From NCBI GenBank assembly GCA_947428835.1, contig CANENE010000013.1, positions 1 through 54,238 on the forward strand: 54,238 nt of DNA, read 5' to 3'. Each line of letters starts with the position of its first letter. Positions within the stretch are counted from its first letter, which is position 1. Shown piece by piece: positions 1-11,421 of this stretch. A program made the position numbers and the translations under genes. The notes under the pieces are model-generated. The model was not told the DNA's origin and made no database searches. It was given only the letters and a program-made list of their open reading frames with translations. This DNA comes from an uncultured bacterium (GTDB taxonomy: Bacteria > Cyanobacteriota > Vampirovibrionia > Gastranaerophilales > Gastranaerophilaceae).

Positions 1-2117
1 TAAATCAGGAAATCAGGCAAATTGCAAAAGATAAAACCAAACATCATATAGTATTATTAGAATCTTTTGATGACATTATGTATAATTCAAACATAGGAAT
101 TAGGGAAGATGGCGCACCAATGTTAAGCGAATTGGAAGTTCAGGCATTGTTTAAAAATAAACCCGAAAATATCCATCTCATATTTCTGGATAACAGAGAC
201 CAGTACTTTACAGTTATTTCTGACGGTGCTTTTGAAAAAGAGTTAAAAGATTTCCAAAGCACTCAAATTCCAATAATGGATTCTGCAGCAGCAAAAGAAC
301 AACTACTTGAAACAAAAGCTTCAATTGAAAAAGAAATTGAAATGAATTTAGATGAAAGCGCGATTGATTTTGCATGTGATGTTTGCGCAGCCCAGAAAGG
401 TTCAAAATATGATAATGCCTTAAGATTGCTTAAAAACGCAGCTTTATACTACAACAACGATGAAATTATGCTTACAAAAGAAATACTTTCAACTTACTGG
501 CAAAATATCAAAAAGGAAGATTTGGCCTCAAAAGACGGTTCCTATGAATTCATTTTTGACACAAAAATGACAACAGATGACATTATAGGTTCAAAAATGG
601 TCAAAGATCAGGCAAAAAATGTCGTTTATGAAATTCAAAATTACCCCAAAACCAAAGGCTATGTTCTTTATAATTCAGAAGGCTTCGGAGGAGGCAGATT
701 TAATTGTGCAAAAGCAATTGCAGGAGAAGCAAAAATTCCAATGGTTACAATAAATGCTGCAGATTTTGCAATTCGCGATTTAGATACAATAAATTCAGAT
801 CCGATGGAAGCTATTGACATTAAAATTTCAAAATTAATTAATATGGTAAAAAGCCAGGCGCAGGCAAACCCAAATAAAACTGCAATGCTTTTTATTTCTA
901 ATTTCGACAGATTCGCCTCCGACCCCTTGTATGGCATTTCATCTCTTTATGAGCAGCAGGCATTTAAAAAACTTGTTGTCGAAATGAAAAAAGCACAAGC
1001 TGATAAATCATATAATATTGTTGTGATGGGCTCTTCGGATTTACCTCAGGCAATAAATGAAAACATTCAGCGCCCCGGATTATTTATGGATGAAATCATA
1101 ATTTATCCTCCCCAAACCAAGCAAAATGTAGCAGAAGTTGCAATCCATCATGCAAATAAAAACGGATATATTTTTGATGGCGGAAATAATAAAAATCAAA
1201 CCACAAAACACCTTGCAACAATTTTAAAAGGCAGCACATTTATTGAGATAACAAATATTATAGATAAAGCAAATATTATCTCGAATAAACAAGGAAAAGA
1301 ATCTATCACAATAGAAGACATTAATGAAGCCTTTTTAAATACTCTGTTTGGTCCGACAAATGAAATTGTTGCAAATGATAAACAAAAAGAAGTTATCATC
1401 CGCCACGAAGGCGGCCACGCACTTAATATGCAATTTATGTATAATCTTTTTAAAGAACAAGGTGATTCCATAAGAATACCCGATTCCGTTAACAATATCG
1501 CGCTAGACCCGAGGGGAGATTTCCTTGGCTGCATTTTCCACGATAGTTCGGACGAGAATATGACAGAAACAAATCTTGAAACCATATTTTCCGATATCGT
1601 CTGTTCTTTTGGAGGCAACTCTGTCGAAGAACATTTCTATAATATGGCAGGTTCTTTTGGAATTTCGCAAGACAGAAGAAACGCAAATTATTATGCAAAG
1701 CTTGCAATTTTGCATATGGGACTTGGCAAAAACACGGGTCATTATATCCCCGATATTGACCCGGTAAGCGGCTCACCTGTATTTATGGATGAAATGGATG
1801 CAAGCGAATACGCCCATGATATCAAAATTATGCTAAAAAATGCAAAATGCCTGTCAGATAAAATTGTTAAATGCTACGAAGATTTTTTAACAGAATTTTC
1901 AAAAAAGAATATCAAAAACTTTGCAACAGGAAAATGCATTATAACAGGGCCCGAATTTGCACGTCAATTGAAAGAATGGGAACGAAGGCAGCCTGCTGAA
2001 AAGAAAAAAGAAATCTATGCTCTTAAAAAAGAGGCTTTAAAAATTGTTGAATTTACAAGAGAAAGCGAAAGGTATAAGGGCCTTAAAAAATACAATCCAA
2101 AGTATAGAACACATTAA
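1..2117 (+). CDS. Clp/FtsH-like AAA protein with M41 zinc-protease domain (5' truncated by window edge)
   Basis: The reading frame is open to the window edge (first full codon at 3), so the gene starts upstream; the ATG at 78 has no Shine-Dalgarno (SD) sequence and lies inside a conserved segment. The first ~150 residues resemble a ClpA/B D1 core (Walker-B-like LLESFDDIM, then FEKELKDF). A second AAA module follows FtsH order, but its P-loop reads EGFGGGRFN (counted from 78, residues ~200-208; no GKT), Walker B reads LFISNFD (no DE) and the arginine-finger region reads QRPGLF. The C-terminal third matches peptidase M41: zinc motif HEGGH at 443-447, GGNSVEE, and a third-ligand candidate Asp532 in SQDRRNA. 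No membrane segment is visible. Zinc proteolysis therefore looks possible and ATP hydrolysis by this AAA unlikely (inference). The family is clear; the substrate and the missing N-terminus are unknown. Confidence 0.75.
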   Translation, partial: NQEIRQIAKDKTKHHIVLLESFDDIMYNSNIGIREDGAPMLSELEVQALFKNKPENIHLIFLDNRDQYFTVISDGAFEKELKDFQSTQIPIMDSAAAKEQLLETKASIEKEIEMNLDESAIDFACDVCAAQKGSKYDNALRLLKNAALYYNNDEIMLTKEILSTYWQNIKKEDLASKDGSYEFIFDTKMTTDDIIGSKMVKDQAKNVVYEIQNYPKTKGYVLYNSEGFGGGRFNCAKAIAGEAKIPMVTINAADFAIRDLDTINSDPMEAIDIKISKLINMVKSQAQANPNKTAMLFISNFDRFASDPLYGISSLYEQQAFKKLVVEMKKAQADKSYNIVVMGSSDLPQAINENIQRPGLFMDEIIIYPPQTKQNVAEVAIHHANKNGYIFDGGNNKNQTTKHLATILKGSTFIEITNIIDKANIISNKQGKESITIEDINEAFLNTLFGPTNEIVANDKQKEVIIRHEGGHALNMQFMYNLFKEQGDSIRIPDSVNNIALDPRGDFLGCIFHDSSDENMTETNLETIFSDIVCSFGGNSVEEHFYNMAGSFGISQDRRNANYYAKLAILHMGLGKNTGHYIPDIDPVSGSPVFMDEMDASEYAHDIKIMLKNAKCLSDKIVKCYEDFLTEFSKKNIKNFATGKCIITGPEFARQLKEWERRQPAEKKKEIYALKKEALKIVEFTRESERYKGLKKYNPKYRTH

Positions 2118-5371: not shown

Positions 5372-7516
5372 TCAACTTTCAGAAGGTGCTTCCGAATTAG
5401 ATAAGTCTTTATTTTCTGAAGAGCTAATAGAGGGAAGCTTATCGGCAGGCTTTTCAACGGGTTTATCGCCACCTGACATATCACCGCCATTACCATCACC
5501 AGGATTATCTATTGAGGGCAGGTCATCTCCATCGCCGCCATCATCACCTGTGCCTATATTTTCATCATCAGCATTACCTGGAATTTCTTCGGTTACAGGT
5601 GGTTTTACGGGTTTTATAGGAGTCGGGGTAGGTTGTGGTCTTGCAGGAGTCGGGGTCGGTTGTGGTCTTGCAGGAGTCGGGGTCGGTTGTGGTCTTGCAG
5701 GAGTAGGAGTTGGCTCCGGTTCATGTGCAGTAGTCGCAGAAGTAGCCGTAGTTGCAGATGTTGCTGAAGTTGCTTTCTGCTCTTGCTGTATTATTTCCTT
5801 TTCTTCTTCTTTATCTTCTTCTATTTTTTGCTCCTTATCTTCTTTAGCAGTGGTTGTTTTAGTTTTACTCTGCGGTATACTGTATTTACCTTCAGGTTTT
5901 GCAATTGCAATCGGCTGCAGATTAATCAAGCAATTGCCGTCTTCATCTAATGTCATAACCAAACCTAAGTCGCTGATTCTAACAGCAGCTAAATCCAATG
6001 TTTCGCCTTCAGCTAAAGCTGCTTCTCTCATTTCAAGGATTTTTGCTCTTAGAACTTCATAGTTATGGTTGTCTACAGTTTGAGATAATGCAGCAAGAAC
6101 ATATTCTTCATATAAATCAGGGTTTTCTTCATATGCCTCTAATAGCGTTGTTTCACCATCATCCATTAGAAGATTATCCATAATTAAACCAAGAGTCCTT
6201 TGTTCATCAGGAAGTTCCGTCATATCCAAAACCGGAGCAATCGGCGACATAAATCCAAGCTTAATTGAAGCATCAGGATTTTTTCTCCAAACATTTAATA
6301 CTCTCATTGGATCAAGGGTTTTTGTTCCTTTTGGAACAATAGCATCAACAGCAATTGTTGGAAGCTTTAATGTCACAGAACCGTTATCTCTGATATATTG
6401 AGCCAATCTTGCTTTTATACCGTCAACAGGCTTATCAAATTTATTTTCATTGGGTTCATATAAAGAAAGTCCCTGCCATAAAGCGTAACCTGCATAAGAA
6501 CTTACCGATGGAATATCTTTATATTTTTCCTGTAGAGCTTTATTAACTACTTGAAGAATTTGATAGTCGGTTTTTGCACCTTTGAAATCTTCGCTGGTTA
6601 ATTCTAAAGTACCTACACCGTTTTCATCGGCGTCAACAGGAGCAAATTCAACTTTTTGAATATATCTTGCGGCATCTTCTTTTTCAGTTTCTTTGATAAG
6701 ACGTACATCTGGAATATAAATACCTTTCATACCGTCTAAATCAATATTACCCAAGAATTCATAAGGGATATTTGTAATATCGCCTTTTTGATAATCAAGT
6801 CCTTTATAATCAATCAAATTTGCAAATCCGGGGTTGGCTCTATATATTTCATGGTATGCATTTTCAACTTCGTTTTGATTATCCATATCAACGTGTAAGT
6901 TGTTTTCTAAAACATCATTTAAATCTCTAAATATACCTTTTCCATCTTCGCCGTAAGCGAGACTATCAATAGCAACATATCTGTATTCAGGTTCTAAAAC
7001 AGAGTATTCGGTATTTTGAGTAAAGTCAAAAGTGAATGAAACTTTATCTTCGGTTTGAGCATTTTGGAAATTATAGTATGTTTCTATTTTGTCTTCTGCT
7101 TGTACTTCAGAAGCTTCATTTATCATATTTCCGCTTACGCTTCCAATTTCGTCTAAAATGTCATCTTCGATTCCGACTGCTTCGGTTTCATCAAATTTAG
7201 AAGCTTCTATTGCCTGCTGTGGCTGTTGGGGAACATTTGTACCGCAGCCTGTTGTATTAAACAAAAGCATCAATGAATTAAGCATTGTTGCAAGCTTAAC
7301 TACTGCTTTGTTTCTTTTAAGGTTATTAAAATCAAAACCTTTGTATTCACCTGATCTTAAATATTCTTCGTGATCATATTCGTCATTGCCTGTAAAGCTA
7401 ACACTGTCAAAAGATTGAGCGCCTGATAAACTGTTAGAAAATCTTAAAGAAGTATTGTTTAATTTGTTGTTCTTAATGTTTCTGACTTCAAAATTTGAAA
7501 TTTGATTGATGTTCAT
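5372..7516 (-). CDS. Large unrecognised protein with N-terminal SFTG leader, internal hydrophobic segment and Pro-Thr repeats
   Basis: 714 residues; I do not recognise a catalytic domain. From the N-terminus: an Asn/Ser-rich leader ending in SVSFTG (38-43); a hydrophobic stretch at about 72-88 followed by a Cys in TTGCG (Cys91), which is not a proper lipobox; a long acidic folded-looking region (~100-560); a Lys/Glu-rich then Ala/Thr/Ser-rich linker; tandem PTPARPQPT nonapeptides; then a Gly/Asp-rich tail. The Pro-Thr section looks like an envelope or surface spacer. SD AAGGA is about 10 nt before the ATG at 7516. Similar leaders occur in the products at 45990-47069 and 48293-49171. A secreted or envelope protein is my inference. 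Confidence 0.65.
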   Translation of the reverse strand: MNINQISNFEVRNIKNNKLNNTSLRFSNSLSGAQSFDSVSFTGNDEYDHEEYLRSGEYKGFDFNNLKRNKAVVKLATMLNSLMLLFNTTGCGTNVPQQPQQAIEASKFDETEAVGIEDDILDEIGSVSGNMINEASEVQAEDKIETYYNFQNAQTEDKVSFTFDFTQNTEYSVLEPEYRYVAIDSLAYGEDGKGIFRDLNDVLENNLHVDMDNQNEVENAYHEIYRANPGFANLIDYKGLDYQKGDITNIPYEFLGNIDLDGMKGIYIPDVRLIKETEKEDAARYIQKVEFAPVDADENGVGTLELTSEDFKGAKTDYQILQVVNKALQEKYKDIPSVSSYAGYALWQGLSLYEPNENKFDKPVDGIKARLAQYIRDNGSVTLKLPTIAVDAIVPKGTKTLDPMRVLNVWRKNPDASIKLGFMSPIAPVLDMTELPDEQRTLGLIMDNLLMDDGETTLLEAYEENPDLYEEYVLAALSQTVDNHNYEVLRAKILEMREAALAEGETLDLAAVRISDLGLVMTLDEDGNCLINLQPIAIAKPEGKYSIPQSKTKTTTAKEDKEQKIEEDKEEEKEIIQQEQKATSATSATTATSATTAHEPEPTPTPARPQPTPTPARPQPTPTPARPQPTPTPIKPVKPPVTEEIPGNADDENIGTGDDGGDGDDLPSIDNPGDGNGGDMSGGDKPVEKPADKLPSISSSENKDLSNSEAPSES
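5619..5716. repeat. 27-bp tandem repeat (three copies plus a partial)
   Basis: Direct repeats at 5619-5645, 5646-5672 and 5673-5699, with a degenerate partial copy at 5700-5716. Copies 2 and 3 are identical; copy 1 differs at one base. They encode the PTPARPQPT units of the minus-strand gene, so copy number changes would keep frame. Confidence 0.95.
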
Positions 7517-8967: not shown

Positions 8968-11421
8968 TTATTGCAAATCCACGCTCAATGTAACCGTTGA
9001 ATTTTTAACCGTAAAACCGAGACTTGGAGGCTTAATGTATTTCAGGGTATCTTTAACAACTTTTAAAACGGTTTGATCAATTGTTGTTGAGCCTGAAGTT
9101 TTTATAATATTTATCCCTACTACATCTCCCGTTGGTGCAATTTTAATATCTAATTGCACAGCCTTGCTTATCGGAATATCATTTACAAGCAAAAGCTCAT
9201 TTTGAAGATTTAATTTTATATTTTTACCTATCAGCTGCAAAAAGTTTTTAAATTCAGGCTTTTTGACAAGCGCTTCAGACGCCTCCCAAGAAATCTTTGA
9301 AACAGCAGGAGTATAAGATTTTTCAGGAAGCTTAGGCTGTTTTATCATAAAATCTTCTATTGCATTTTTAGGAGGTGCATCCATCGGCATACCATTATTA
9401 TATGCATCTGCCTGTGCTTGATAACCGTCTTCAAATAATTCGGGCCGGGTGTTTTCAACTTCATTTTTATTTGCAGTTATATGACTTACTCCTTGAAGCG
9501 CAATAACTCCAAAAACTACAAGAGCAAGCAGCATAAATATGGAAACCAAAAGAAGCCTTTTCTTTTGAAAACTTTTTGAAGAAGAAGCCTGTTCTTCTAA
9601 AACCAGCTTTTTAGGGTCTTCAAAGATTTCTTGTATAACTTCATTTTTTGTTATTTCATTACGGCCATAGGTAGGAACAGGAGCGGGAATTTCTCTTATT
9701 TCTCTTATCTGCCTTTTTGGGCCGTTTTGACCTGTTGGCTGCTGCCTTATAGGTTCAATTTGAGGCGCATATTCATAGTATTGGTTTTGGGTTGGTGTAT
9801 CTATATAATTTTCATATCTTTGAGGCTCAAATTTGATAGGCTCAATTGTTCTTGGTTTTCTTGTCGGAGTATTTTTTCTAAGCCTGTCTTTTTTATTTCT
9901 TTGGATATTTTGCCTTGGTTGGACATTTTGTTTTTGAGCATTTTGTTCATTGTTTTGAGTAGTATTTTGAGAATTTTGTTTAGGTTTTACCTGTCCTAAA
10001 TTTTCTTCAATTGTATCTTTAATTGTTTTTTGAACAACATCTTTTATATACTTTTTAACATCTTCCTTGTCTAATTTTTGCCCTTGTCCCTCATTTTGGC
10101 TCATACTTTTTTTAAGTTCCATCTCACTCATTTTGGCAAGCATACTCAAATCATCATCTTCCTGAACAGGCGGAGGAACGTATGTCGGTTTCGGATTTTG
10201 GGCAAGTTTTTTTTGAGATTCTTTGAAAAATTCATATTCATCTTTTAAAGAAGGTATATGGCCCTGTTGTGCCATAGGAACATCGGGCAAATCTTTCAGC
10301 TCTTTATATAAAATTTCATCATCAGATAAAGTATCGCTTGAAGATGTTCTATATTGAATGCTAAAATCATCCTGGTCTTCTTGGGTATTTGAAACATTAT
10401 AATTTTCTTCAACTTGCCTGTCATAGGAAGTAAATTTGCGTTTTTTATTTTTTGATTTTGGAAAAGTTTCTATGGCATAAGCGCCATTTTCATCTTGATG
10501 ATTTTGGTGTTTGTTTTGTTCATTTTGATGATTTTGATAAAAGGAAATATCATCATATACACCATTTTTAGGGACTTCGCTTCTGTCAATTTCATCAAAA
10601 TTTTCTAAACCCTGATTAAAATTAAGGTTTGTGATGCCTTCTTCAAGTTTATTTGAGATATTTTCTTCTTGTTCAATTGCATCCATCGGGATAGGAATAG
10701 TTTTGTTTTTGTATTTTTCGACAAGATCGGGATATTTGCTTATATTGTTTGCAAGCCTTTCAAATTCAATTGTTTCATTAAGTTTTTCTCTGCACATGGG
10801 GCAGTCTATAAGATGCTTGATTAATTCCCTTTTATAAGCCAAGGGAAGTTCGTTGTCCATAAATTTTAAGAATAATTCCATACATTGAGTATGTTTAGGA
10901 GGTATCGGGCGTATGGGAGCTGCTACATTTGTCAGGCGGCGGAATTTTTCGATATCAAAGATGTCATCTAAATTCGGGTATAAAAATTTATTATCACAAG
11001 AAGAAGCAAGAACAGCTTTTTGGCTCAGAAAACCAATCATTTTGGCTTCTTTGATTTTTGAACCTATTTGGACAACAAAATAAAAATCAGGCATAATATC
11101 CATATCAACATGGATTTTTGGGATTTTAACCGTTTTTTCCTGATAAAGCGTTATGACATCTGTTCTATAGCCATTATTGTATATATCGGTGATTTTAAAT
11201 TCTTCAAAAAGAGAAGGGATTTTATAGATGCTTTTTTTGATATCAGCCCTTACGCCTTTGACTTTAAAATATCCATAGGCGCAATTAATCCCCAATATGT
11301 CAATCAGACCCCTTTTTCTAGTTTCAGGGTCAGATAACTGTTGGGCCAAAACCGTAGCATTATCAATTTGCTCGGGATTTATTTCAATAATTTCCGAATT
11401 TAGCATCTGATTTGTCGACAT
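8968..11421 (-). CDS. Membrane protein with HC2-type zinc-finger motif and C-terminal TonB-like domain
   Basis: About 817 residues. N-terminal folded region of unknown type (~1-165); then CMELFLKFMDNELP and HLIDCPMC, which match the HxxxCxxC pattern of anti-sigma-factor zinc fingers; a long Gln/Asn/Lys-rich disordered stretch; one membrane segment (LLLVSIFMLLALVVFGVIAL, about 630-650); and a final ~85 residues like a TonB C-terminal domain (IKIAPTGDVVGINIIKTSG, ending in a short beta-strand). The layout predicts a cytoplasmic N-terminus and periplasmic C-terminus. I prefer the ATG at 11421: GAAGGA (11435-11440) lies 5' of it and a -10-like TATAAT at 11443-11448 overlaps any longer TTG start at 11442. 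Whether it transduces energy or senses stress is unknown. Confidence 0.65.
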   Translation of the reverse strand: MSTNQMLNSEIIEINPEQIDNATVLAQQLSDPETRKRGLIDILGINCAYGYFKVKGVRADIKKSIYKIPSLFEEFKITDIYNNGYRTDVITLYQEKTVKIPKIHVDMDIMPDFYFVVQIGSKIKEAKMIGFLSQKAVLASSCDNKFLYPNLDDIFDIEKFRRLTNVAAPIRPIPPKHTQCMELFLKFMDNELPLAYKRELIKHLIDCPMCREKLNETIEFERLANNISKYPDLVEKYKNKTIPIPMDAIEQEENISNKLEEGITNLNFNQGLENFDEIDRSEVPKNGVYDDISFYQNHQNEQNKHQNHQDENGAYAIETFPKSKNKKRKFTSYDRQVEENYNVSNTQEDQDDFSIQYRTSSSDTLSDDEILYKELKDLPDVPMAQQGHIPSLKDEYEFFKESQKKLAQNPKPTYVPPPVQEDDDLSMLAKMSEMELKKSMSQNEGQGQKLDKEDVKKYIKDVVQKTIKDTIEENLGQVKPKQNSQNTTQNNEQNAQKQNVQPRQNIQRNKKDRLRKNTPTRKPRTIEPIKFEPQRYENYIDTPTQNQYYEYAPQIEPIRQQPTGQNGPKRQIREIREIPAPVPTYGRNEITKNEVIQEIFEDPKKLVLEEQASSSKSFQKKRLLLVSIFMLLALVVFGVIALQGVSHITANKNEVENTRPELFEDGYQAQADAYNNGMPMDAPPKNAIEDFMIKQPKLPEKSYTPAVSKISWEASEALVKKPEFKNFLQLIGKNIKLNLQNELLLVNDIPISKAVQLDIKIAPTGDVVGINIIKTSGSTTIDQTVLKVVKDTLKYIKPPSLGFTVKNSTVTLSVDLQ

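Follow-up and report, generated by a model that had tools for sequence, protein, structure and literature searches.

FtsH-type proteases are defined by the ATP-driven feeding of a zinc protease; FtsH needs ATP for proteins, and its ATPase module carries two arginines in the second region of homology (SRH; RPGR). The degenerate relatives of FtsH known to us have lost the protease and kept the AAA module. The plant FtsHi proteins, which are membrane proteins without HExxH, have in this way lost one of the two activities of FtsH, and in plastids such pseudo-subunits are found in mixed complexes, FtsHi being assembled with FtsH12 (PMC9020784, PMC8197885). A degenerate ATPase module is paired with an intact protease domain in LonC of Meiothermus (MtaLonC), a Lon-like hexamer without ATPase activity that still binds six nucleotides per hexamer and breaks down unfolded proteins independently of ATP (PMC3391209).

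Here we describe a protein family of Gastranaerophilales that is the opposite of FtsHi, in that it retains HExxH and has lost the ATPase motifs. It shares with FtsH (TIGR01241) the AAA-M41 order, the zinc site formed by HExxH and an Asp, and the GG..AE motif; it differs in lacking transmembrane helices, intact Walker A and B motifs, sensor 1, the pore loop and the second arginine finger, and in adding Clp_N-like and D1-like modules. The likeness to LonC is one of analogy only, since LonC has a Ser-Lys Lon protease domain and no Clp-like N terminus, whereas the family described here has an M41 domain. In the open-licence literature, we found no account of M41 proteins whose AAA module is degenerate, or of this family in Gastranaerophilales/Melainabacteria.

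RESULTS

A gene split over two contigs. The window (the whole stretch of DNA analyzed, 54,238 nucleotides) is the entire contig C13 of a 1.8-Mb metagenome-assembled genome (MAG) and opens inside a gene. With the first third of a homologue (L003; 1019 amino acids, 58% identical) as the query, we traced the missing 5′ part to the end of contig C5 of the same genome (locus L060, 9662/9706..10685), which overlaps the start of the window exactly over 55 bp. The joined frame has 1013 codons and is open to the left; we estimate the whole gene at about 1,010 to 1,030 codons and the protein at as many residues. The likely start (MIVNAIKENSLKSSSIKR...) sits 5′ of a run of seven G residues, out of frame with the remaining gene, so that in this MAG the frame is broken after 20 codons (L060:9662-9800), while in homologues from the genus the same 5′ region is in frame. 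The run is either an error in the consensus or a slippage tract, possibly a phase-variable one. The features of the window part are collected in Table 1.

TABLE 1 Features of the protease gene in the window; residues are numbered from the first codon of the open frame
Feature	Coordinates	Strand	Remarks
Open reading frame	3..2117	+	704 aa; 5′ end open at contig edge; 3′ part of a longer gene
C-terminal part of degenerate Clp D1-like AAA module	3..572	+	Without Walker A or B; from profile comparison
D1-lid-like motif	within 3..572	+	Corresponds to Clp LPDKAIDLIDEA; from profile comparison
Degenerate FtsH-type AAA module with lid	573..1322	+	Pfam AAA core 693..1097
Pseudo P-loop GGGR, residues 229-232	687..698	+	Replaces GTGK(T)
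Ser-Asn in place of Walker B Asp-Glu, residues 299-300	897..902	+	Glu-Asn in most homologues
SRH RPGL in place of RPGR, residues 357-360	1071..1082	+	First Arg (R357) kept, second replaced by Leu
Peptidase_M41 domain	1371..1826	+	Pfam residues 457-608, 33.5 bits (cut-off 29.9)
HEGGH zinc/catalytic motif, residues 468-472	1404..1418	+	HEAGH in canonical FtsH; H-E-x-G-H invariant
Glu542, FtsH GGRxAEE motif	1626..1628	+	Invariant
Asp557, third zinc ligand	1671..1673	+	Invariant; D532 when numbered from the first ATG
Helical C-terminal extension	1827..2114	+	Family-specific, conserved; SD.I...Y.DF...F ... GTG.CII...F.. L..W

Loss of ATPase motifs and retention of the zinc site. In the reassembled protein, a short leader and a Clp_N-like domain are followed by two degenerate AAA modules, the first Clp D1-like and the second of the FtsH type, and then by M41. 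The FtsH-type part is recognizable (Pfam AAA, residues 231-365, 34 bits against a cut-off of 21.2), and over residues 517-963 a profile of the family matches the FtsH structures 6gcn/4ww0 (about 1e-40); the 704-residue part nonetheless falls short of the FtsH family cut-off, scoring 84.7 bits with TIGR01241 against 600. When the canonical FtsH of the same genome (contig C3, 632 amino acids) is taken as the reference, GAPGTGKT has become GFGGGRF in the P-loop, FIDEID has become FISNFD in Walker B, ATNRPD has become GSSDLPQ at sensor 1, and RPGRF has become RPGLF in the SRH. Other family members have G[GSA]GR, FIENFD and, in the SRH, KPYKF. No aligned homologue retains the Walker A Lys-Thr, the Walker B Asp-Glu, sensor 1 or the second arginine finger, and the FVG of the pore loop is gone from all of them as well. 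The original prediction, made from the window alone, had called the P-loop, Walker B and arginine finger all lost. This is borne out for the first two across the 28 aligned homologues; of the two SRH arginines, the second is indeed Leu but R357 is retained in the window protein. Most homologues have lost both, and the first is kept only in the window's subclade. An active P-loop further upstream in the same protein, which might have explained ATP use, is absent from the recovered part of the gene and from about 30 full-length homologues.

The zinc site tells the reverse story, as had been predicted. H468, E469, G471, H472, E542 and D557 are invariant in the 28-row alignment at 30 to 58% identity, which argues that the peptidase is selected for. 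HExxH is present in every homologue inspected, and all 26 homologues searched match Pfam M41; with the Pfam cut-off passed and HExxH, the third-ligand Asp and the conserved Glu in place, the window protein is assigned to M41 by sequence. The predicted lack of a membrane segment also stands, the best 19-residue hydropathy mean being 0.99 in the whole protein and 0.77 to 1.42 in homologues, compared to 3.0 for the transmembrane helix of canonical FtsH. A structure model built from a two-row alignment (mean pLDDT, 42.5) was discarded as uninformative.

The dead ATPase module is not the part that varies. Its core is the best-conserved segment of the protein, with a mean majority fraction of 0.67 versus 0.60 for M41, and its dN/dS is 0.035 to 0.044 in the four pairs with measurable dS; dN/dS is low in the other domains too. 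The pseudo P-loop G-x-G-R is invariant in the 28 homologues and the adjoining helix (IAGE..IP) nearly so. The high conservation and the dN/dS of about 0.04 indicate that the pseudo-AAA module is a working part and not debris.

Clp-like N-terminal half. The resemblance to ClpA/B D1 noted in the original prediction is weak in single sequences and is borne out by profile comparisons. In single homologues, matches to Clp_N or AAA_lid_9 are weak: Clp_N is matched in 1 of 26 members and AAA_lid_9 in 4 of 26 (best, 0.016), too little to establish a Clp D1 identity from Pfam alone. A profile of the N-terminal half matches 30 ClpB/ClpC sequences colinearly over Clp_N and D1 at 77%, and the Clp_N part matches at 86 to 89%, at the expected place. 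The D1-like region of active-looking relatives matches Clp D1 colinearly at 93% and that of the ATPase-dead family at 99.4%, and we accept the D1 homology through these relatives. The similarity to ClpA/B/C (HSP100) is a weak, colinear profile match that covers Clp_N and, within D1, runs from the Walker B strand to the lid inclusive, with its PDKA..L motif; the family differs from them in a D1 without Walker A or B, in an FtsH-type AAA in place of D2, and in having its own protease. Neither the ATPase-dead family nor its relative L137 has a P-loop in the D1-like region. For the predicted Clp D1/FtsH chimera, a more accurate description is a Clp_N-like module, two degenerate AAA modules (one D1-like, one of the FtsH type) and M41 in one chain. 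Elsewhere, a 456-residue protein of the window genome (contig C7, L045:2717-4087, + strand) has four Clp_N matches and no visible ATPase domain, and proteins of about 490 residues at L138 (G193:C10), G202:C55 and G197:C40 resemble just ClpB N and D1 at 25 to 27% identity.

Most family members, and the active-looking soluble paralogues described below, begin with a leader, M-x-[IV]-x-x-[IV] ... [STNP]-F-x-G (in some, LKANYLSFxG), seen at the N termini of L005, L010, L016, L111 to L118, L122, L124 and L137. Among unrelated proteins, a few per cent carry the same leader, which may serve for targeting; at the highest score, 5 N-terminal occurrences compare with 0.55 expected, a modest excess. The leader also stands at 7516..5372 (− strand) of the window, at L055:4340-5059 (− strand) and on open reading frames in L093, L095, L100, L107 and L108; unrelated carriers in the order include an adenylate kinase with an extended N terminus and a protein resembling phosphoesterases. 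The window's own carrier (714 amino acids) continues with a hydrophobic stretch containing Cys and a C-terminal PTP repeat region. A 957-residue carrier (L051:12547-15420, − strand) lies a few genes from an ATPase-intact soluble FtsH paralogue.

Distribution and relatives. Of 382 genomes of the class searched with the profile of the N-terminal half, 96 contain the family. All of these belong to one order, with none outside it; 93 are in the window's bacterial family and 3 in two other families, one of these being the ATPase-intact L137. Roughly one-third of the sampled genomes of the window's family carry the ATPase-dead protein. The distribution is patchy even inside the genus, and most genomes with FtsH are without it. 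No operon is conserved beyond the genus: only a divergent glgC recurs, in the window's subclade (in the window genome and, with intact frames, in two other genomes of the genus), and we saw no conserved neighborhood that would indicate a pathway. A second, active-looking FtsH gene, which the original prediction had proposed to look for, is present in the window genome as the canonical FtsH on C3. This membrane FtsH is the genome's single other M41 protein and is 26% identical to the window protein; ClpB and ClpC are encoded as well.

When the AAA-M41 part was placed in a tree with IQ-TREE, the ATPase-dead family and canonical FtsH each formed a clade (100/100 for both), with soluble leader-bearing ATPase-intact proteins apart from both. 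The program warns of possible long-branch attraction between L111/L113/L116 and the dead family. The soluble proteins (L137, L112, L115, L051 and others) have the same leader, no transmembrane segment, and FtsH AAA and M41 domains; unlike the window family, they have intact Walker A/B, sensor and arginine fingers. Those at L051:7537-9801 (− strand), L052:7305-9542 (− strand) and L117 to L121 are 740 to 780 residues long, with ATPase and zinc motifs intact, and we found no description of this group. L137 (833 amino acids; G208) joins the leader and a D1-like region to a canonical FtsH AAA (GTGKT, FIDEID, ATN, RPGRFD) and M41. Because relatives in the order share the leader and D1-like region and keep an active-looking FtsH AAA, we conclude that the FtsH-type ATPase of the family was lost secondarily and that the protein did not originate by fusion of an already dead FtsH. 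L111, L113 and L116 keep the P-loop with a degenerate Walker B and degenerate arginine fingers (L113 has HELAH), implying that degeneration was graded or occurred more than once.

DISCUSSION

We think it somewhat probable, by analogy with LonC, that the family is a cytosolic, ATP-independent M41 zinc endoprotease in which the pseudo-AAA rings serve as gate or scaffold. This is the most economical reading, given a zinc site under selection, no motor or membrane anchor, and separate FtsH, ClpB and ClpC. We imagine that the M41 domain would form its usual hexamer, and that the two nonhydrolyzing AAA modules would sit above the protease chamber as a fixed scaffold that gates it and docks substrates. 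The Clp_N-like domain might act as an adaptor or bind substrates. Access to the zinc sites would then be limited to polypeptides that are unfolded, short or loosely structured. That the protein forms a hexamer, is proteolytically active, does without ATP and takes this class of substrate is what we infer. An FtsH-type chamber without a motor might be closed, and the invariant G-x-G-R could bind nucleotide, making the enzyme ATP regulated rather than ATP independent.

That last point leads to a rival that we rate as unlikely, a nucleotide-gated protease that is switched on or off when a ligand (ATP, ADP or some other) binds to G-x-G-R and is not hydrolyzed. The invariance of the motif, the near-invariant helix beside it and the strongest constraint in the protein all speak for it, as does nucleotide binding by the ATPase-less LonC (PMC3391209). 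However, the Lys and Thr/Ser of the P-loop and the acidic Walker B residues, which hold phosphate and Mg2+, are gone in all members, and a glycine-rich turn may be conserved for structural reasons alone. It is quite unlikely that the protein acts as a partner subunit, in mixed rings with an active AAA protease motor such as canonical FtsH, ClpC or a soluble leader-bearing FtsH paralogue. The plastid FtsHi-FtsH12 complexes offer a precedent (PMC9020784, PMC8197885), and some genomes of one genus (g6) hold both the ATPase-dead protein and an active-looking soluble paralogue. Yet the only other M41 protein of the window genome has a different topology and little identity, most FtsH-bearing genomes do without the dead protein, and the SRH residues for intersubunit contact are lost.

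The leader could also be taken to direct the enzyme for export or to a compartment free of ATP, where the ATPase was lost. Its presence in most members, in active-looking soluble paralogues and in some unrelated proteins would fit, but the leader-bearing close relatives L137, L112 and L115 keep an intact ATPase, which makes an ATP-free destination doubtful; no hydrophobic signal segment is seen, and the excess of the leader over background is small. We regard this reading as very improbable. That the gene is a decaying pseudogene or an assembly artefact is hardly credible, despite the split over two contigs and the frame break at the G7 run: homologues in nearly 100 genomes are nearly all full-length and open, dN/dS is low throughout, and two further genomes of the genus have the same gene, with its frame intact, beside divergent glgC. 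For the family, purifying selection and the open homologues refute it.

Returning to the ATP-independent protease and its ligand-gated variant, we see an even chance that the family represents a class of AAA protease that is new: an M41 enzyme with two pseudo-AAA tiers, one HSP100-like and one FtsH-like, both of which lost ATP hydrolysis under selection. Gut Vampirovibrionia would then have a zinc protease machine that is energy free or ligand gated, and the order in which hydrolysis was lost would be visible in living intermediates. The family reverses the known loss, and its active-looking and half-degenerate relatives are extant, which allows the role of an AAA ring in assembly, gating and substrate choice to be asked about apart from ATP hydrolysis. 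If the proposal is true, the family would be the M41 counterpart of LonC.
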